Source of the DNA: a virus
Direction: 5' to 3' (one strand)
IMG/VR virus record: IMGVR_UViG_3300030061_001455
Location: 1 to 23,611 of that record
DNA length: 23,611 nucleotides
Within the stretch, counting starts at the first letter, position 1. Every line of letters starts with the position of its first letter. Positions 2,680-17,179 of the stretch are shown one piece after another. Below the pieces are notes generated by a model that searched no databases, was not told the DNA's origin, and saw only the letters and a list, made by a program, of their open reading frames with translations. Both the position numbers and the translations under genes were made by a program.

Positions 2680-4419
2680 TTAGGTCTGGGCCATATTTTG
2701 AACTCTGCCTATTTCTTGCCACACAGATCCATTGTATCTAAATGAGAAAATATCTGTTTTGTTTGCTGTTGCCGTAACCGTAGGTGCGGTTGAAGCTGCA
2801 AACTCGAACACAGTATTCCATGCGACTGTACGAGCTGTACCACCTTGTGCTAACTCTACAGATATAATAGCCCCTTCTACTGCATTACTAGGGGCCGAAA
2901 ACGTAGTGTTCTCAGTTGTAACATGGTATGCATTTGCGGCAGCTGCAGCGTCCCAAGCTACTGCGTTAGAGCTTGAGGTTAATGCAACTTGTGTAATTTT
3001 TGCCGAAGTTGCTGCTGTAACAACACCTGAAAAAGATGCTGTTGCAAAGGTTGTTGGCGTGATATCAGCAGAACCATCAAAACTTACTCCACCAATATTT
3101 CTAGCAGTTGTTAAAGTAGCTGCTGAACCGGTTGTGTCTTGGTTTAGTGTTCCTACTGTAAAATCTAAAGTATTATCTGCATCTTGATAAGCTACGGTTA
3201 TACCTGATTCAGTATTTGAACCAACCATAGCTCCTACAGTATCTGCTATATATTCGTTTAAGGCTGTGCCATCTACTGTAATTGCATCTGCTTCTAAAGT
3301 CCCATCTATATCAGCATCACCCGATACATCTAAACTTGTTGCATCAACTTCACCTGCTACTGTCAATACTCCATCAGCTAGAGTCATTAAATCAGTATCT
3401 GATGTATGTCCAATGGTTGTACCATTAACAATCACATTATCAACTGTTAAAGTTGTTAAAGTTCCTAATGAAGTTATATTTGATTGTGCTGCGCCTGTAA
3501 CTGTAGCCGCCGTAGCTGCTGAACCGGTTGTATCTTGGTTTAGTGTCCCTATTACAAAATCTAAAGTATTATCAGAATCATCATAAGATACTGCAATGCC
3601 TGTTTCAGTGTTACTTGATACCATAGCGCCAACTGTGTCAGCTATAGTTTCCGCAAGTGTTACACCATTTACAGTAATAGCATCAGCTTCTAAAGTACCA
3701 TCAATATCGGCGTCACCTGATATATCTAAACTTCCTGCATCAAGCTCTCCACTAATAGTTAATAAACCACTAGATGGATTATAAGTAAGCCCAGTATCTG
3801 TTTCTAAACCTTGAGTACCGGTTGCGCCATCTACAAAAACAGGATAAACCGTTTCGTCTGTTGAATTATTAGCAGTAGCTGTAATAGTGTCTGCAGTGCC
3901 TAAGTTTACTGGTTCTACATGATAAGCAGTTATAACCCTGCCATTAGCGGGGGCTGTAGCAAATGTTAAAGTAGTACCAGAAACGGAGTAAGTATTATGA
4001 GCCTGGAAAACACCATCAATAAAAACTTGTAAATAATTTTCATTGGTAGCGGTTTGAGAAAGGGTAAATGTAGTATCACTGCCATCGCCGGCAAAAATGT
4101 TTGTGCCCCACGAAGAAGAACTTGTACTGACTTCTTCAAGTACAACAGCCGTTATTCTAAGCTCGGCTTTATCACCGCTACTGAATGCTCTTGCTGAAGT
4201 ATTATCTTGAGCCCTAACAATGGTTAAAGTGTTACTACTACGAGCAGTTACTTTAACAATTTCATTGTTTGTACCATCATCAAAAGTGCAATAAAAATGC
4301 TCACCTGCACTAAGGGAAGGAAATACAGACCCATCAGTTACAGTAGCACTCGTTACACTATTATTTATATTTGCTGCAAGAGTTGTTTTGGCATTGTTAG
4401 TATATTTAATACTCGCCAT
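2680..4419 (-). CDS. Tail fibre protein with 80-residue tandem repeats
   Basis: This 579-residue protein is Thr/Ser/Ala/Asp-rich and has a fibre-like composition. The N-terminus (about 1-95) is a small beta domain. Residues about 108-170 match a domain widely found near the N-terminus of phage tail fibres: GDGSDTTFTL, then L-Q-V-F-I-D-G-V-F-Q, then V-S-G-T-T-L-T-F. Residues 224-303 and 356-435 are two copies of an 80-residue segment that are identical at 64 of 80 positions. The C-terminus (about 480-579) is a further beta-rich domain ending in F-S-F-R-Y-N-G-S-V-W-Q-E-I, a pattern seen at the ends of phage fibre heads. No catalytic motif is seen. It sits first among the large fibre genes, after the small 144-aa gene with a 17-nt gap containing AGGAG. 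It probably forms the elongated shaft or a side fibre; which one is inference. Confidence 0.85.
   Translation of the reverse strand: MASIKYTNNAKTTLAANINNSVTSATVTDGSVFPSLSAGEHFYCTFDDGTNNEIVKVTARSSNTLTIVRAQDNTSARAFSSGDKAELRITAVVLEEVSTSSSSWGTNIFAGDGSDTTFTLSQTATNENYLQVFIDGVFQAHNTYSVSGTTLTFATAPANGRVITAYHVEPVNLGTADTITATANNSTDETVYPVFVDGATGTQGLETDTGLTYNPSSGLLTISGELDAGSLDISGDADIDGTLEADAITVNGVTLAETIADTVGAMVSSNTETGIAVSYDDSDNTLDFVIGTLNQDTTGSAATAATVTGAAQSNITSLGTLTTLTVDNVIVNGTTIGHTSDTDLMTLADGVLTVAGEVDATSLDVSGDADIDGTLEADAITVDGTALNEYIADTVGAMVGSNTESGITVAYQDADNTLDFTVGTLNQDTTGSAATLTTARNIGGVSFDGSADITPTTFATASFSGVVTAATSAKITQVALTSSSNAVAWDAAAAANAYHVTTENTTFSAPSNAVEGAIISVELAQGGTARTVAWNTVFEFAASTAPTVTATANKTDIFSFRYNGSVWQEIGRVQNMAQT
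3115..3354 (-). repeat. Fibre tandem repeat, copy 2 (residues 356-435)
   Basis: This encodes GEVDATSLDV through TTGSAAT and is the downstream copy of the 80-residue repeat in the tail fibre gene. It matches copy 1 at 64 of 80 residues, with the longest identical blocks being SGDADIDGTLEADAITV and GTLNQDTTGSAAT. The two copies are offset by 132 residues. Confidence 0.9.
3511..3750 (-). repeat. Fibre tandem repeat, copy 1 (residues 224-303)
   Basis: This encodes GELDAGSLDI through TTGSAAT and is the upstream copy of the 80-residue repeat in the tail fibre gene. A 52-residue linker, itself Thr-rich, separates it from copy 2. The pattern suggests duplication of a shaft segment. Confidence 0.9.
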
Positions 4420-4879: not shown

Positions 4880-5545
4880 CTAATTAAAACTATAAGTGTT
4901 TAGAGGCGATGCATTCAATACACTGTTTGCACCAGATATATGTAGAACACTTATCGACTCAGATATTGTAGCACTATCTGACGCAGATGTACTAAAACTA
5001 TATGCCAAGGTTTCTGAAACAGACGGCGTTTCAGACAGGGCTTTTGCAAAAGATCTTACTGATGACTCTGATATTGAAGCTGAATCAGCAGCAGTAGTTG
5101 AGTATGCTAAAGCTAAAACTTCGCTTAATGTAGCAGAATGCCCTATACCGGTTGAAAAATCAGTGGTTAGGGGGTCACTATTACTTGCTGTATCAGCTAA
5201 ACTAATAGACTCAGAAAAAGCCCTTACAAAACTTACTACCCTACTAAAACTTTCACTTACAGATACAGATTCTGTTTGAGTAGCTAAAGTAAAGGCTAAT
5301 GCGGCCTGTTCTTCTAAAGTAGCTGTATCTCCTAGTGCTTTAGCAAAACTTGTAATAGCCACAGACTCTGAAATAGTGACTGTTTCTGCGTTTGGATGGC
5401 CTACAATAAAGAATAAATCTTTAGAATAAGCATCTAGTATTACATCTACAGCAGACAAATTTACATACTGTACGATGCCATTGATGTCTGTAAATGTAAC
5501 AGTTGACTTTAAGTCAACATAACTAACTGTTTGTTTGAACGCCAT
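4880..5545 (-). CDS. Ser/Ala-rich fibre protein with 18-residue repeats
   Basis: This 221-residue protein is not assigned to a named family. Residues 1-50 form a short N-terminal domain (VSYVDLKSTVTFTD, then DLFFIVGHP). Residues about 54-205 consist of eight imperfect repeats, mostly 18-20 residues, beginning at about 54, 73, 92, 112, 136, 154, 172 and 190. A typical unit is D-S-A-S-I-S-E-S followed by an A/S-rich half with a central aromatic (SFAKALS, AYSFSTSAS). This could form a repetitive beta shaft or a coiled-coil-like rod. There are no Cys residues, signal peptide or membrane segment. Its ATG overlaps the stop of the BppU-N-like gene as TAATG, so the two are probably co-translated and may form part of the same baseplate or fibre assembly. 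Confidence 0.75.
   Translation of the reverse strand: MAFKQTVSYVDLKSTVTFTDINGIVQYVNLSAVDVILDAYSKDLFFIVGHPNAETVTISESVAITSFAKALGDTATLEEQAALAFTLATQTESVSVSESFSRVVSFVRAFSESISLADTASNSDPLTTDFSTGIGHSATLSEVLALAYSTTAADSASISESSVRSFAKALSETPSVSETLAYSFSTSASDSATISESISVLHISGANSVLNASPLNTYSFN
4931..5386 (-). repeat. Eight imperfect 18-20-residue coding repeats
   Basis: The repeats lie in the Ser/Ala-rich fibre gene and cover residues about 54-205. The unit consensus is roughly [DE]-[ST]-x-[ST]-[ILV]-[ST]-E-S-x3-[FY]-x-[FTA]-[AS]-x-[AS]-x. Spacing is regular (18, 19 or 20 residues) except for one 24-residue unit at 112-135. The divergence between units suggests old duplications rather than recent slippage. Confidence 0.8.
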
Positions 5546-5939: not shown

Positions 5940-8900
5940 TTAAAAAATAGACGCCGCAAAAGGTAGGTAGTCTTTAGTGTTAATTGTTCTGTCAATAAAT
6001 ATATCATCAAAGCGTTCTGCTGTTGGGCCCAATGCAGGTAAGAACCAAGCATCGCCATAACGTTCAGCTTGTGCCATAGGCAACAATAAACCGAATGGCC
6101 CATAAATACCAGATCTATCTAGTAGCTCAAACATGTAAGTGCCCCACGGCATTTTGTCTGATCTAAAAGCTCTGTCTGCGCCAGCTTCATCGCCTATTGC
6201 GCTTCGTCCTAAAAATTTAATAAACTCCCTTAGTTCTAGACCAATAGCAGTTAAAGGTAATAGAAGAGTTGCCATTATTATAACGGGCATTATTCTACTG
6301 CTTAATTGCCCATCACTTCTATATTTATTTCTGCCCTCTCTAATAGCACCACCAACTATGTTTTTACCGTAAGCATAGAAGAAAGATTTTAATTGCCATA
6401 CCAAAGCAAAGTATGGGTTTGAGGCCCACACAGGTCTTTCTGCAGCATTTGGCCTTACAATTGATTCTTCTACAAATCTACCTAAAGCTTCTTGTACTTT
6501 TTTCCCGCCTTCGGTGTCAAACCTTTTTTGGCCGTTTTTATTAGCGCTAGCCCATTCTAATACTTCGTCTGGGGTTAAATTGTTTTGAAGTTCTCCAAGA
6601 TGTCTAATTGCAGTTTCATCGCCGTCTTTAGCTTTTTGAGCAAGTCTTATTAAATATTGTTGACCCATACCCGCTGCAAACACACGTGTAAACTTAGTGT
6701 ACTGTTCTAACAAAGTTATTCTAAAAAAGCCTCTTGCGTAACGTTTAGTGTCTTCTGTCATAAACCCAAGCTCTGCAGCGTTTATGTACATAGTTTCTAT
6801 TGAGTCATGAGTAACAACTCCTAAATCTCTAGCAAACTGTTCTGCTTCTTTTTTGTTTTTAATTGTGTATTGAAGTTGTTCTACAATAGTTCCAAACTTG
6901 TCATTCATGTCTTTTGATCTAAGAACTGGTCCTGCTAAATCAGGCAAGGAAGCAATTGCAGCAAAAGTTAAAAGTGTAACCATATTACCTAAAAGGGCCC
7001 AACTGTTTAATTGACGCATAACTGGGCTCATGTTCATTCCAACTTTACCAAGTTGAGCTTCTATAGCTTTTCTAGCCCCCTCTCTGCTTGCATCATCTTC
7101 TATTCTAGAAAGCAAAATTTCCATAGCTCTCCAACCAGCTACTTCTGTTTCTCCCTCTGCTAACTTTGTTAAAACTTCTGCTTTGTTTTCACCGTACAAC
7201 TCTTCTAATTTAGCTTTATCTGCTTCCGTTGGAGCAACAGTAATAGCTTTTTCATACTCTAGTTTTTTAGTAATGCTTTCTATGTATGATTTAATTGCAA
7301 AATCAGCAGGTGCTAATAAGCCTGCATCTCCTTCTGCATTTATATCACCATTTGCATCTAGTCCTCGTCGGGCTGCATGGTTAGGAATTTTGTCAAAGTA
7401 TTTCTTTCTTTCTTGAGCCATACCAACAGAAAGTGTAGAAGCATCTTCTTCTGCACTTTGTTTTTCATTTCCTGTTGAATCACTATCCTCGTCTGTTATT
7501 GCCCACGCTTCAACAAACGCTAACCAACTTTCAAACCCTTTAGGTTTTGCAACTGTAGGGTTGTATTTTGCTAATAGATCAGCAAGTTTTTGACGTTTTT
7601 GTGGGTCATTGACTATTGAAGATAAAAGCCAATGCCTACTAAAGAAATTTTCTTTGTAACGTATATTAGGGTTGTTTGGTGTTATGTAGGTTTCATAAAA
7701 GTCTTGCAAAACTTTTCTCATTGCTTTTGCAGCAACGGGTAAATCCTCTGTGTTTACTCTGTCATCTTCAGCTTGTAATGCAGCTTCTGCAATAAGCTCA
7801 ATGTTTAATTCACCATTGCCATCTCTAAAAACAAGATTGCCATTTTCATCCCTAGTATCATACAAAGAGTTTAAGTTTTGGTTTGTTATTAAAGTTCTTG
7901 CATTAATAAACCCAAACTTATCTTTAGAAGAAGAACGAGAATATAATTTTTTTGCTATATCTTTTCCGGCTTCACCTAATCCTCTTAAATACCCATCAGA
8001 AGTTTGTAGTAAATATGCAACAGACCAATAACCTTTGTCAGTGGTTTGTCCAGGAAGTTTAGCTCGAAGCATTTGTACAATTTTAGTTTTAATGCTTTCT
8101 AATGTTTGTCTACTTACAGATTTACCAGACTCTTCTATTGTTTCTTCAATTAAATTTCGAACTTGTACTTCTTGCCCAAAACTCATACCTTGCAACGAAT
8201 CATGTAGGCTTTGATAAGTTCTTCCATTTTCCATAACTTTATTTACATAGGTTTCAAAATCTCCAAAACCAGATGCGGTTTCTGAAAACCTTTCTCCAAA
8301 CACAAGATTTCGCATTTTTTTATAAATGTTTTCTATTTTTTTAAATAGCCTAGTAAAGTACCCGCTAACAAAATCGCCGCCTCGTGCTGTTTCTCCTGTT
8401 CTAATTTTCTTTAAAAGTACCGTTGCAAGTTTATCTGCAAACCACTCTTCAAACCCGTACTTAGAATTGTATTGTTCTTTTGCTTTTGGGTCTGTTGTAG
8501 TATCACGTTCTTTTTCAAAAGCATCCATTAAAAACTTTAAACCCCGTTGGTTTTTAAAAAGAAGTTGAAGTTCCGTTCTAAACACTGCGTGGCCCATTTC
8601 ATGTGTTAACGCCAACATTGCAACTGGTAAACTAACGCCACCTCTTCTTCGTTGATCAGAAGAGGTAAACGGCAAAGTAGGGTTAACCTTACCACTAGAA
8701 TCTACAAACAAAGTATCGTCTGTTAAACTTTGAGATTCATCATAAAACCCCGCTAGCTGTCCGGTAAACCCTTTGATTCTTTGTATATCTATTAAAATGA
8801 CATCTTCATCTGTATCTGGCAGATACACATACTGCGCAAGTTTTTCGTCCTCTTGCATTTTTCTTGCATAAGTAAACAAAATTTTATCTCTAGAAGATTC

Positions 8901-11900
8901 TTGTGTATCTTTAGACATCTGAGTCTGTTGAATCAATTCTTCTGGAGTTATCATAGTCAGCTTTCTGTTGTATTTAAAAATGCTTTTTGTAACTTCTAAA
9001 AGTTTATAAGCAAAATTGTTTTTAGAATCAGCGCTTTTACTAGGTTTTTTAGTTGGATCTGGGTTGTTAAAATAATCCCTTACATTAGGGGAAATAGTTG
9101 CATCTTGTAGCTTTAAAGGTTTTGTTGCGGTTTTTGGTTGGTTTTTTTGTGCAAATGCTTTTAAAGATTCTGCATGGTTTGGTCTTTGGTTAATATAATA
9201 TAAAATTGTTTTGCCGGCTAATTTACCTTCTGCTATTTGGTCTAAAACCCACTGTCTTCTTTCTTGTTTAAAATCTGTGTGGGCAGTGCCCTCTAGCCAT
9301 TTTTCATATTGAATTACGCTGTCTTCTAGATTTTTAGTTTTTCTTGCATCTCTAGCATTTGGTAAATGGCTAAAAGGGTTGCCGTAGTGTTTTTCGCCTG
9401 GTTTTCGTAAAACACTTATTCCTTCATTGTTTGCTTCTGCAGTTTTTACAGCTTGTACTCCATTTAAATATTTTATAGTTACTGCTCTAGTTCTGTCAGC
9501 ATCCTCAGCTATTCTTTGTTGTAAGTTGTTAAACCATGTTTGATTTAATACATCTACTGCATCTTCTTGATCATACTCAAGTTCCGCGCCTTCAATTTGC
9601 TCTCGTTGTGCAGACCCTGGGTCGGCGTAAAGACTTGGATCGCCTATAGCAAACTCGTTTAAAGTTATATAACCCTCTCTAGGTGAATTTAATTCTGGGT
9701 AATTTTCAACAAGAAAATCTAAAATAGCTTCTTGGTCAGTTCTGTCAAAAACAAGAGGAGAAAATGCAGGTCCCTGATCAACAGTATCAACGCCTGGAAT
9801 TGATTGTTGTGGGTTAACATTTACTGGGTCAGTAGGAACAACTTCTCCTGGAGACCTTTTGCTTATTTCATCTCTAAATAACCGATCACTTAAACCTTCT
9901 GGTGCTCCTACTTTTTCTATTATTTGAGCTATAAACTCTTCTTTTCCAACGGCAGGGCGAGGGGCGCTTATATTCCGCCCACCTGGAAATTCAGCAGAAG
10001 GAACCCTTAAACCCTGACGAATTGTGTTTTTATTAAATTTAACTCTACTATTTCCATCATCTATTTCTGTTATATTTTTAACCGTGCCACCGGGCCCATA
10101 CTCTACGTCTATAGGAGCAATAACAATTTCTTGTGAAGCGGTGTTTAAATATTCGATAATATTTTTTTGGCTTCCCTTTACACCATAATGTAAAGGTCGG
10201 CCAATTGCTTCTAAATCAGCTATTAAGGTAGGCAAAGCTTGCGCGTATCTAGCTTCTCTTGATATATTTAAATCAATCCCATCTCGGTCAATAATAAAAT
10301 CAAGTAACTGAATAATACTTACACCATTTGTTCTACCATAAAGTTGATCCGGAGCAGCTGTTTTAGGTCTTAAGTTTTCACTAAACAGATTTGGTTGCGC
10401 ATATACCCCACCCCTTACTGTAGGTTCTACAGCATCCATTTTTGTTGCAACAAGAGGGACATTAAAACCTGGTAGTTTATCTAGCCCAGTATCAGACGCA
10501 TATTTTTTTCTTAAATCATCTCGAAGGTGTTGAGGATTAGTAGCATTTTGAATAGCCACATTTAGATCTTGATCAAAACTGCTTGATAAAACTCTTGCGT
10601 TGTAAGCTAGCTCACCCGCGTCATTTTCTTGCACTTCTATACCAACATCTAAAGATGGGTCTTCCTCTTTAGCTTTCATTATTTCTTTAATAAGGTTTAA
10701 TGGCACGTTATCAAAGTTAACGGTGCTTACTTGTGGGCCTATTGCATCTAAAAACTCTTGTTTTTCTTGTTCGGAAGGAGTTTCTTTTTGTTTTAAAGCC
10801 TCACTTTCATATGCGCTAATAGCCCTTTTGGGGACTGAAAACAACAAAGTCCCCTCTACAAACTTGCCTGTTTGTAAAGTTTCGTCTCCTGCATCTGCAA
10901 AAACCCTACCATCATTATCGTCATCAGTTGCTTCTTCTGTTGGAGTTGTTAATCCTTCTTGACTATCTCCCTCCGCAAATATATCTTCGGCAGTAGCAGC
11001 ATTATTAGCCATAGCATCGGCTAATGCTTCATCTCTATCTTCTCCTAAATCTCTTGTTACTGGGCTAGAGCGTTGGACAAAATCTTGTATTGGGCTCGTA
11101 GTTTCTTCTTCACCTTCTTCTTCTAATCTACGCGCTTCGTACTGTGCTTCAAAAGAAGCTTCTTGGTCTGCTAGTGGAACAGCATTGCTATCAACTAAAT
11201 CAACAATATCATCTACAGTGTATGTTTTTTGTCCATCTGGACCTGCGTTATCTTCTCTTAAATAACCTGCATCTACAGCGGCTTCTATTAGCTGATCGAT
11301 GCCTATGCCACCTGTTTTTGTGTAACTAAAAGTACCCCTATCTAATCTATCTCTTAGTTCAGCAACCCCTACCGCTTTAGGATCAAGTTTGTTGTTTCTA
11401 AGAAAAGTTTTAAATGGTACATTCTTTTTAACGGGTTTAGCTTTAGCTTTTGGTTTTCGTTTAGCTCTTGGTTTTAATGTACGTTGAAACCTTGAAGGTC
11501 TAGACCCCCGTAACTCCGCATCTGTTTCTTCACCAAAAAACAGTTCTTCTTGTAAAGGTTTAGTACGTTCAAAAAAGTCTGTTTCTGTTTCTGCTACAAT
11601 TTCTGCGCCCGGGTTATTAGCTTCTAAGTTTCTAAAAGCCGCTTCAATAGATGCTTCGTCAGCAGGAACAGCTTCATAATCAATCGTTCTGCCTTTGCTA
11701 TCAACGGCACGTATAATAATGTCACCAGATTCAGGAAGTGCACTTAAGTTAAATAGGTTTTTAAAGGTTTCAGGGTTAGTAAAATCATTTTCTAAAGCTG
11801 TGGCCCTTTTTTCTCTACTAACCTCGCTGTTTTGATCAAATATAAGAACACCACCCGCAGCTTCATTTATACCTAAAGCGGCTTCTGGAAATTTCTTTAA

Positions 11901-13340
11901 AATATTTTTTATATCATCCTTAGTTTTATTTGGTATCCACACTAATCCTCTTGGAGATGCCGGATCTAACATTGCTTCTATTTGACCTTCATAATCATCA
12001 TCGGTTAGTTCAATTTTAGAGGGATCAATGCTACCTGTAAGGTTGTTATCAGTTAGTCTAGCCCTGGCTTCATTTTGCAAGTCTTGTTGCATTTCTCCGC
12101 CAGTAGAAACCATTTTATAAGCCTCAGCTATAACACCAGAAGGTGCTCCTCTCGCACCACCGGCCATAGCACCCATAAACAAAGCTTCTATGCCCCTAAT
12201 TCTAGCTTCGGCTTCTTTGTATTGTGGGTCTATTGCAAATCTTTGTTGGATAAGTATTTCTTCTTGTGCACGTTCAGTTAAACCTTCTGCTACTGCACTA
12301 CCTGCAAAACCAACAGCGCCGGCTTTGCCTAAGTCTAATAAAAACTCACCTGCGGTAGAATTACCCGCAGCCTTTCTTAAAACTCTAAGGTCTTTTTTAG
12401 AAAGTTCTCCTGGTTTATCTAAAATTTGTCTGACCGTGCTATTTTTCACTAAATCGCCTGTAGCTTTTTTAAACAAAGGCGCAAAGAAAGCCGCTTCTCC
12501 AACGACGTCTAAAACAGCTTGTGGGAAACCTAAAGCAAGAGCCGTTTTGGCTTCTTTTGCAGTTAATTTATATCCAGCCTCGTCATACTCTTTAAATGAT
12601 TGAGAAGCACCTACTATCTCGCCTTGTGTAAGTGCGCCTGTTACTGCACCTATAGTGGGAAGACGCAGGCTTGCTGCTCTTGCTCTAGCATATCTATTTG
12701 TGGCTGCGGGTAAACTTCCCCTACCAACACCAGAGGCGTATCGTAATCCATCATAAGCTGTATCTAAAATCTCTTCTTCAACTTGAGTTAACCCTGGGCC
12801 TCTGCCAGTGTTGCTCATCATTTTTTTTCTTTGTAGGTCTAAAAGCATGTCTTTCGCATACTTTTTACCACCCTGGCTTATAATCTGTTTACCTAAAAAC
12901 CCAGCTACAAGACCAGCTCCCGCTGAAGCAAAAGAAAACATTGCTTGCGGAGTAGTCATTGTTATGGCTTTGGTGCTTTGATCTAAAAAGCCAGAAAAAG
13001 TTGGTTCATCTAAAAATTCTTCAAACTGTCCAAAAGGCTCTAAAATAGAAGAAAAACTTTGTTCAAGTTCTCTTGAACGTTCCATTTTAGCTTCTGCAGC
13101 ATCATCATTGCCCCTCAAATAATCAACGATAGCACCAGCGGTGATTATGTCAGATTCAACTTGCTGTGCCCCAGCGCGAATGCCCTGTGATACTTGTCCA
13201 CTAAAACTAATTGGGCCTACTACTGGGCCTTTTTGGTCAGGTTGTCCTACACGAGTTGGGCCTTTAACAGATGATAAAGATTCAACGTCTTGTTTTTGTA
13301 CTGCAAAAAATTCAGCTAAAGGATTAGAATTGTCAGCCAT
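5940..13340 (-). CDS. Giant polyvalent internal virion protein (zincin + DUF4326-like)
   Basis: This 2466-residue protein is in the position of T7 gp16 (last and largest internal-core gene, before the fibres) but is far longer than T7 gp16 (about 1300 residues). Features in order: Gly/Ala-rich hydrophobic stretches at about 127-150 and 225-245; a Lys/Arg/Pro-rich linker near 615-645; a small domain at about 645-745 (GGIGIDQ, DAGYL, VDDIVDLV) of the type in large phage polyvalent proteins; a DUF4326-like domain at about 1290-1400 (GNPF at 1320-1323, QYEKWLEG, RRQWVLDQI, H1389). A zincin metallopeptidase motif HEMGH follows at 1580-1584, with EEWFAD at 1631-1636 supplying the likely third ligand. 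The C-terminal third matches polyvalent-protein ends, with R-P-V-W-A-S-N-P-Y and hydrophobic segments at about 2115-2140 and 2350-2372. No transglycosylase motif was seen. It is probably packaged and ejected with DNA. It shares TAATG with the 694-aa gene. Confidence 0.85.
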   Translation of the reverse strand: MADNSNPLAEFFAVQKQDVESLSSVKGPTRVGQPDQKGPVVGPISFSGQVSQGIRAGAQQVESDIITAGAIVDYLRGNDDAAEAKMERSRELEQSFSSILEPFGQFEEFLDEPTFSGFLDQSTKAITMTTPQAMFSFASAGAGLVAGFLGKQIISQGGKKYAKDMLLDLQRKKMMSNTGRGPGLTQVEEEILDTAYDGLRYASGVGRGSLPAATNRYARARAASLRLPTIGAVTGALTQGEIVGASQSFKEYDEAGYKLTAKEAKTALALGFPQAVLDVVGEAAFFAPLFKKATGDLVKNSTVRQILDKPGELSKKDLRVLRKAAGNSTAGEFLLDLGKAGAVGFAGSAVAEGLTERAQEEILIQQRFAIDPQYKEAEARIRGIEALFMGAMAGGARGAPSGVIAEAYKMVSTGGEMQQDLQNEARARLTDNNLTGSIDPSKIELTDDDYEGQIEAMLDPASPRGLVWIPNKTKDDIKNILKKFPEAALGINEAAGGVLIFDQNSEVSREKRATALENDFTNPETFKNLFNLSALPESGDIIIRAVDSKGRTIDYEAVPADEASIEAAFRNLEANNPGAEIVAETETDFFERTKPLQEELFFGEETDAELRGSRPSRFQRTLKPRAKRKPKAKAKPVKKNVPFKTFLRNNKLDPKAVGVAELRDRLDRGTFSYTKTGGIGIDQLIEAAVDAGYLREDNAGPDGQKTYTVDDIVDLVDSNAVPLADQEASFEAQYEARRLEEEGEEETTSPIQDFVQRSSPVTRDLGEDRDEALADAMANNAATAEDIFAEGDSQEGLTTPTEEATDDDNDGRVFADAGDETLQTGKFVEGTLLFSVPKRAISAYESEALKQKETPSEQEKQEFLDAIGPQVSTVNFDNVPLNLIKEIMKAKEEDPSLDVGIEVQENDAGELAYNARVLSSSFDQDLNVAIQNATNPQHLRDDLRKKYASDTGLDKLPGFNVPLVATKMDAVEPTVRGGVYAQPNLFSENLRPKTAAPDQLYGRTNGVSIIQLLDFIIDRDGIDLNISREARYAQALPTLIADLEAIGRPLHYGVKGSQKNIIEYLNTASQEIVIAPIDVEYGPGGTVKNITEIDDGNSRVKFNKNTIRQGLRVPSAEFPGGRNISAPRPAVGKEEFIAQIIEKVGAPEGLSDRLFRDEISKRSPGEVVPTDPVNVNPQQSIPGVDTVDQGPAFSPLVFDRTDQEAILDFLVENYPELNSPREGYITLNEFAIGDPSLYADPGSAQREQIEGAELEYDQEDAVDVLNQTWFNNLQQRIAEDADRTRAVTIKYLNGVQAVKTAEANNEGISVLRKPGEKHYGNPFSHLPNARDARKTKNLEDSVIQYEKWLEGTAHTDFKQERRQWVLDQIAEGKLAGKTILYYINQRPNHAESLKAFAQKNQPKTATKPLKLQDATISPNVRDYFNNPDPTKKPSKSADSKNNFAYKLLEVTKSIFKYNRKLTMITPEELIQQTQMSKDTQESSRDKILFTYARKMQEDEKLAQYVYLPDTDEDVILIDIQRIKGFTGQLAGFYDESQSLTDDTLFVDSSGKVNPTLPFTSSDQRRRGGVSLPVAMLALTHEMGHAVFRTELQLLFKNQRGLKFLMDAFEKERDTTTDPKAKEQYNSKYGFEEWFADKLATVLLKKIRTGETARGGDFVSGYFTRLFKKIENIYKKMRNLVFGERFSETASGFGDFETYVNKVMENGRTYQSLHDSLQGMSFGQEVQVRNLIEETIEESGKSVSRQTLESIKTKIVQMLRAKLPGQTTDKGYWSVAYLLQTSDGYLRGLGEAGKDIAKKLYSRSSSKDKFGFINARTLITNQNLNSLYDTRDENGNLVFRDGNGELNIELIAEAALQAEDDRVNTEDLPVAAKAMRKVLQDFYETYITPNNPNIRYKENFFSRHWLLSSIVNDPQKRQKLADLLAKYNPTVAKPKGFESWLAFVEAWAITDEDSDSTGNEKQSAEEDASTLSVGMAQERKKYFDKIPNHAARRGLDANGDINAEGDAGLLAPADFAIKSYIESITKKLEYEKAITVAPTEADKAKLEELYGENKAEVLTKLAEGETEVAGWRAMEILLSRIEDDASREGARKAIEAQLGKVGMNMSPVMRQLNSWALLGNMVTLLTFAAIASLPDLAGPVLRSKDMNDKFGTIVEQLQYTIKNKKEAEQFARDLGVVTHDSIETMYINAAELGFMTEDTKRYARGFFRITLLEQYTKFTRVFAAGMGQQYLIRLAQKAKDGDETAIRHLGELQNNLTPDEVLEWASANKNGQKRFDTEGGKKVQEALGRFVEESIVRPNAAERPVWASNPYFALVWQLKSFFYAYGKNIVGGAIREGRNKYRSDGQLSSRIMPVIIMATLLLPLTAIGLELREFIKFLGRSAIGDEAGADRAFRSDKMPWGTYMFELLDRSGIYGPFGLLLPMAQAERYGDAWFLPALGPTAERFDDIFIDRTINTKDYLPFAASIF

Positions 13341-16735: not shown

Positions 16736-17179
16736 TTATAATTCTTTTCTAAATGTGTAACTAATTAAATCGAAGCCCATTGTAGGAGCTTCTTTTTTCC
16801 AACCTTCTCGGCTACTTTCAAATTCAATAGCAACAGCGTTATATTCGCTTGCTAGTTTCTCTAAAAAAGTAAAACCAACATTTCTATAATTATACTCCGG
16901 TTTTTGGTAAGTTGCCCATATGTGTAGGGTGACCTCGCCGCTTTTGTTTTTAAGGAACTGCACGATTAAAAAACCTACATACACATCCTCTCTGTAGAAC
17001 ATATACAAAACAGCTTCGCCTTCTCGCAGGGCTACATAAACATCAGAAGTGATCCAGTCAGCTCGCGCTTTTTTTATGACCTTCTTTAGGTGGGGTTCAA
17101 TTTTCTCGAAAGAATACTTTACTTCACTCTGAGGAATTTCTTCAATTGAGATCCCATCAATAATCGATCTCTGAACCAT
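16736..17179 (-). CDS. GNAT-fold protein, T7 gp13-like
   Basis: This 147-residue protein has the strand-helix pattern of a GNAT acetyltransferase fold. It has a beta strand E-A-V-L-Y-M-F-Y, then V-Y-V-G-F-L-I-V-Q-F, V-T-L-H-I-W-A-T-Y, a helix after Y-N-Y-R-N-V-G (97-102) and a C-terminal W-K-K-E-A-P-T-M-G-F-x-L-I-S-Y signature typical of GNAT ends. The acetyl-CoA loop (usually [RQ]-x-x-G-x-[GA]) is only partly kept (R-N-V-G-F-T), so activity is uncertain. T7 gp13 (138 residues), encoded between the tail tube and core proteins, has a similar GNAT-like pattern. Here the gene also lies between connector genes and core genes, which supports a virion assembly role. It overlaps the end of the upstream 227-aa gene by 23 nt. 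It could instead be an active modifying enzyme. Confidence 0.72.
   Translation of the reverse strand: MVQRSIIDGISIEEIPQSEVKYSFEKIEPHLKKVIKKARADWITSDVYVALREGEAVLYMFYREDVYVGFLIVQFLKNKSGEVTLHIWATYQKPEYNYRNVGFTFLEKLASEYNAVAIEFESSREGWKKEAPTMGFDLISYTFRKEL

Follow-up and report, generated by a model that had tools for sequence, protein, structure and literature searches.

A gene for a probable giant gp16-like virion protein with a candidate enzymatic cargo in a podovirus genome from IMG/VR

A single open reading frame of 2466 codons lies among the virion genes of an IMG/VR virus (record IMGVR_UViG_3300030061_001455, positions 1 to 23,611; this whole stretch of 23,611 nt is called the window below). 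An earlier note on this DNA had read the frame as a candidate giant ejected core protein, carrying a metallopeptidase and a DUF4326-like domain. The locus raises a two-part question: whether a protein of this size belongs to the ejection machinery of the virion, and, if it does, what its enzyme-like middle could be doing there.

The gene, its neighbors, and its relatives

A virion module of podovirus type lies on the minus strand of the window and encodes a P22-type portal, a major head protein, tail and core proteins, and tail fibers (Table 1). Among known phages, those of the KPP25 type have the most similar major head proteins, at 52% identity. Gene order is that of T7 genes 14-15-16-17, with proteins of 179, 694, and 2466 aa followed by four small genes and a tail fiber, compared to 196, 747, and 1318 aa and then gp17 in T7. 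The extent originally given for the giant frame was exact. Two other genes of the module may be described briefly. One (16736-17179), between the tail and core genes, encodes 147 aa with the look of a GNAT acyltransferase by eye, and matches PHROGs 610 and 7642, of unknown function; the other (4880-5545) encodes a repetitive 221-aa protein in which S-x-S-E-S and S-F-x-K-A-L stretches recur and which is probably part of a fiber.

Table 1. Positions of the giant gene, its parts, and selected neighboring genes in the window.
Feature	Residues	Coordinates	Strand	Basis or remark
Giant gp16-like internal virion (ejection) protein, predicted	2466 aa	5940..13340	minus	Intact ORF and translation; relatives of similar length sit likewise between virion genes
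N-terminal chassis	~60-560	11661..13163	minus	Common to part of the family
N-terminal hydrophobic cluster (weak)	128-405	12126..12959	minus	Hydropathy; EGLTERAQ motif at 352
Variable cargo region	600-1500	8841..11543	minus	Few relatives align
Possible small polyvalent-type domain	645-745	11106..11408	minus	Marginal
Divergent, cysteine-less DUF4326 domain	~1300-1402	9135..9443	minus	Pfam and hhalign
Zincin-like metallopeptidase domain	~1440-1700	8241..9023	minus	Family alignment, predicted secondary structure, relatives' model matches
Hypervariable patch, directly before the HExxH helix	~1485-1570	8631..8888	minus	Window compared to L002
HEMGH; H1580 and H1584 putative zinc ligands, E1581 putative general base (zincin precedent)	1580-1584	8589..8603	minus	Invariant in family alignment
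EEWFAD; E1632 likely third zinc ligand	1631-1636	8433..8450	minus	E1632 family-invariant; E and D invariant in zincin alignment
C-terminal helical chassis domain	~1740-2461	5958..8123	minus	Profile matches and BFVD folds
C-terminal hydrophobic cluster	2110-2378	6207..7013	minus	Hydropathy
Protein at T7 gp15 (tunnel) position	694 aa	13340..15424	minus	Putative, from position and size only
Protein at T7 gp14 position	179 aa	15428..15967	minus	Putative, from position and size only
Protein adjoining core genes	252 aa	15973..16731	minus	No assigned function
Tail fiber gene, downstream, compare T7 gene 17 after gene 16		2680..4419	minus	PHROG tail fiber, 2.4e-25

Relatives of the giant protein gathered from IMG/VR include one that is 93% identical (L002), one that is 39% identical in its best segment (L003; 917 alignment columns, zincin included), and then 38 loci found by alignment of the zincin and C-terminus. 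Many of these were fetched with HExxH or GFEEWF patterns, so the frequency of zincins among those loci is biased. Relatives in named phages are those of phiA008, KPP25 and its relatives, CRP-810, tf, and a Microcystis phage. The KPP25-type (HESMH), Microcystis phage (HELGH), and phiA008 (HELGH) proteins came from tblastn, in most cases by way of the C-terminus, and keep an HExxH although no motif was used to select them; tf gp51 has none.

Coverage of the window protein by 33 family proteins is uneven: up to 17 of them align over residues 60-560, two over 600-1260, about four by 1500, and between 19 and 30 over 1560-2460. With high coverage at both ends and low coverage between them, the giant protein is, by sequence comparison, a conserved chassis with a replaceable middle.

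Kinship with internal virion proteins

A profile of the C-terminal domain was tested with reversed decoys, and the proteins it matched had no part in its construction. Matches were found to phiA008 (1e-118), CRPAP1904 (5e-117), tf gp51 (4e-55), Mae-Yong (5e-48), CRP-810 gp34 (6e-44), and LUZ24 gp50 (7.5e-37); a weak one to LIMElight gp47, the T7 gp16 equivalent (4e-6, above the best decoy at 0.076); and a borderline one to LKA1 gp48 (0.023). T7 gp16 itself has no sequence match to this profile. An N-terminal profile built from relatives matches tf gp51 (E 1e-8) and LUZ24 gp50 (E 3e-6). With an AlphaFold model of residues 1720-2466 (pLDDT 72, pTM 0.75), BFVD fold matches at probability 1.00 were obtained to the KPP25 structural protein and to the internal virion proteins of LKA1, LIMElight, RSB3, JG068, and Cota. 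A PDB fold search with the C-terminal model gave nothing significant (T7 core protein 7eyb was second, E 0.39), and little was learned from searching PDB by sequence or with Foldseek. The T7 gp16-like position proposed in the earlier note is supported, as are the gene order and the C-terminal relationship.

Hydropathy confirms the C-terminal hydrophobic segments reported earlier (2110-2142 and 2342-2378). The weaker N-terminal cluster in Table 1 had not been remarked on. The two clusters lie around a soluble middle, as do those of T7 gp16 (319-413 and 1132-1263), and an EGxTExxQ motif is common to the window protein, L003, phiA008, CRPAP1904, and tf. The part of T7 gp16 between its two membrane regions has been placed in the host cytoplasm (PMC8954989); by analogy, the middle of the window protein would also come to lie there.

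The likeness to T7 gp16 and the phiKMV-type proteins (LIMElight gp47, LKA1 gp48, RSB3 core protein) thus extends to gene position, the two hydrophobic clusters, and predicted fold, and in the case of LIMElight to C-terminal sequence. Unlike these, the window protein carries a zincin, and its two clusters are separated by some 1,000 additional residues. The N-terminal transglycosylase, present in T7 and absent from P22, has no Pfam match in the window protein; this domain is not universal in gp16-like proteins (PMC8954989).

As they are matched by both the N- and the C-terminal profiles, LUZ24 gp50 (1,055 aa) and tf gp51 (1,021 aa) can be described, from sequence, as the bare chassis: its two halves are joined directly, without the cargo block of the window protein. 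Both are recorded as virion structural proteins. ESI-MS/MS detected nine proteins in LUZ24 particles, and seven tf proteins have homologues among the LUZ24 virion proteins (PMC3517423). The LUZ24 gp50 record reads “phage particle protein” in PMC3890496 and “virion structural protein” elsewhere; its membership in the mass spectrometry set is taken here from the names of such records and from papers that cite the work. By analogy with these homologues, the giant protein is probably carried in the virion. KPP25 ORF088 and the CRPAP1904 virion structural protein (2107 aa, with HESMH) have the full C-terminal domain, as the window protein does, but no DUF4326 was detected in them and their middle region is a different one.

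The N4 virion RNA polymerase was considered as a further example of the same chassis, and rejected. The polymerase of Klebsiella phage Pylas is likewise a giant virion protein with an HExxH, but its score with the C-terminal profile does not exceed that of decoys, and it has no convincing match to either of the two chassis profiles. No RNA polymerase family was found in the window protein.

The zincin, the DUF4326 domain, and exchanged cargo

The HEMGH and EEWFAD motifs are present where they had been reported, and a single HExxH has a chance expectation of 0.006 in the window protein. The pair HExxH ... E-W-F/Y-A/S-D is kept across relatives. In a structural model of the domain (mean pLDDT 64, no PDB fold match), secondary structure fits the order helix-strand-helix-strands-HExxH helix-E helix. 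Relatives match the Peptidase_M78 (best 2.4e-4), DUF6782, and CapP (7.5e-6) models, with the matches centered on the HExxH helix; in a single-model Peptidase_M78 search they score 5e-6 to 9e-3, one of them over the cut-off. For the copy in the window protein itself there is no match to any zincin family model, M78 and CapP included. Weak PDB matches of the family profile (E 0.5-2.4) are mostly to zincins, among them IrrE and CapP. Taken with the family alignment, these results uphold the zincin-type domain suggested earlier: it is conserved in sequence, and is predicted to be a zinc protease. Precedents for zincins in polyvalent proteins include both self-processing and action on host proteins (PMC5512222). 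Just before the HExxH helix, the window and L002 proteins differ at 29 of 72 residues, with additional indels and few synonymous changes, while residues 1576-1650 are identical.

For the second domain, the GNPF, QYEKWL, RRQW, and H1389 elements listed in the earlier note are all present, and homology to DUF4326 (PF14216) is supported; an active phosphatase is another matter. Pfam gave nothing on the whole window protein. With the domain cut out, DUF4326 is the best family for the window (E 0.0048), L003 (0.0062), and a third locus, L046 (0.0029), in each case below the gathering score. Against four megaplasmid proteins, three of them annotated and Pfam-confirmed as DUF4326, hhalign returned 97.9%, E 3.6e-13. 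The homology covers about 100 residues, with G-N-P-F, Y/F..W, ERR.W, and the final histidine in common, but the conserved cysteines near the C-terminus (CFC and CH) are all replaced in the window, L003, and L046, with GCFCxPxxCHGD of the megaplasmid proteins corresponding to LYYxxQxPNHAE in the window. DUF4326 has been placed in the rhodanese-phosphatase superfamily, with processing of ADP-ribose phosphates as its predicted activity (PMC9503650). Because every conserved cysteine is lost, phosphatase activity of the window copy is doubtful; the domain may hold a ligand without cleaving it. In searches with restrictive patterns, DUF4326-like domains were found in IMG/VR only in L002, L003, and L046, and in none of the bacterial genomes or phages searched. 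When the window record was searched with the DUF4326 model alone there was no match, though the cut-out domain does match; the first pass of this search is coarse and its negatives are weak.

Most of residues 600-1500 have no assigned domain in Pfam. The small polyvalent-type domain that had been proposed at 645-745 is marginal: L024 alone among relatives matches it (E 0.017, against 0.074 for the best decoy), and Pfam gives nothing. No match was found in the window protein to MPTase-PolyVal (PF18818), in a single-model search with a coarse first pass, or to LPD38 (PF18857), in a similarly coarse search in which no control matched either. In overall makeup, though, it is polyvalent-like: a zincin and a DUF4326 domain in one large protein beside virion genes, with further enzymes in relatives. 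Polyvalent proteins (Iyer et al., 2017, PMC5512222) are likewise large, multi-domain, and zincin-bearing, are encoded beside virion genes, and have mixed cargo among relatives. The window protein differs from them in the two family matches it lacks and in a chassis homologous to a gp16-type ejection protein.

Cargo differs among relatives on the one chassis, which bears out the earlier suggestion of cargo fused to an ejection protein. In the L003 protein (P0003) the order is SLOG (882-1062), NADAR (1076-1181; 2e-5), DUF4326, half-SLOG (1350-1453), and zincin; the window protein gave no match to either NADAR or SLOG. The phiA008 protein has a staphylococcal nuclease (SNase) domain at its N-terminus, and CRP-810 gp35, which combines two HExxH motifs with an ART-PolyVal domain, adjoins gp34, the C-terminal chassis protein. 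Cargo is therefore not always between the hydrophobic clusters, the phiA008 nuclease being N-terminal and the CRP-810 ART on a separate protein. The middle regions of most other relatives gave scattered weak matches to Pfam and NCBIfam, none convincing, so that most of the cargo is without a domain assignment.

A SLOG matching that of L003 is present within the virion RNA polymerase of Pylas. Of the two L003 copies, the first is degenerate in its N-terminal half and intact in its C-terminal half, and the second is an N-terminal half alone. The same SLOG is also found near the C-terminus of a ~4,300-aa protein of the crAss-like phage cr109_1 (L056).

Possible roles of the middle region

On this evidence, it is reasonably probable that the giant protein is a gp16-type ejected protein, delivered at injection, with inserted cargo acting against early host defense signals. 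It would be stored in the head as an internal core protein and leave with the DNA. The N- and C-terminal parts would make up the ejection machine, with the two hydrophobic clusters crossing the host inner membrane as in T7 gp16. The block of about 1,000 residues inserted between them, comprising the divergent DUF4326 domain, the zincin, and other stretches, would be exposed in the host cytoplasm at the start of infection. An anti-defense action is the most likely one for this cargo because the block is exchanged between relatives, some with NAD/ADP-ribose or nucleic-acid enzymes; domain identity in a few relatives, together with published context, points to NAD/ADP-ribose defense signals as its possible target. 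The zincin would most likely cut the giant protein itself, freeing the cargo or readying its release, or else cut a host regulator.

A broader version can be put forward only tentatively. A podovirus ejection-protein family could be a loading frame, with cargo enzymes exchanged in the stretch that separates the two membrane-crossing parts and reaching the cytoplasm before phage expression, and in this lineage the cargo could be an ADP-ribose-signal module, with the DUF4326 domain as a cysteine-less binder (sponge or sensor) that the zincin releases or activates.

Alternatively, the middle could be a relic or spacer, with a dead DUF4326 domain and a zincin whose sole task is maturation, during assembly, of the giant protein or of the head, without any action on the host. 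The missing cysteines would fit, as would the two chassis proteins without cargo (tf gp51 and LUZ24 gp50), and P1 DdrB is known to be processed before packaging (PMC5512222). However, the DUF4326 block is 55-61% identical to those of L003 and L046 over the domain (for L003, 69% across the best 100 residues), compared to 39% for the chassis, and is therefore either constrained or recently exchanged; in other relatives, different enzymes are found at the same gene. A relic or spacer is accordingly rather unlikely.

The zincin could also be the main effector, acting once injected to cut a regulator of the host or of a prophage in the manner of ImmA/IrrE or CapP, with the patch before the HExxH helix tuning its target. 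The M78 and CapP matches of relatives, the weak IrrE and CapP matches in PDB, and the replacement of the patch between otherwise near-identical proteins are all consistent with this. It becomes improbable when the window protein is found to match neither model and the relatives' matches to center on the HExxH helix; moreover, since pLDDT is under 50 over much of the patch, this may be just a flexible loop. That the giant protein is instead a late-expressed assembly factor kept in the producing cell, and not a virion protein, is very hard to reconcile with homologues recorded as virion structural proteins, the fold match to internal virion proteins, and the T7-like gene order.

If the giant protein is indeed ejected with its cargo, it would offer a testable route by which counter-defense functions could be delivered ahead of phage gene expression. 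The bare-chassis forms in LUZ24 and tf would serve as natural controls. Profile matches, predicted fold, and gene order tie a zincin-bearing, polyvalent-like chassis to the gp16-type core proteins, and in one relative NAD/ADP-ribose-type domains are fused to the putative injection protein.

The genome of the closest relative, L002, has some further genes of possible interest: two weak matches to Nmad5 (nucleotide modification associated; L070, 15-665 and 2693-3565), a DUF2201 putative metallopeptidase/VWA protein, a family A DNA polymerase, and a SNF2-type helicase.
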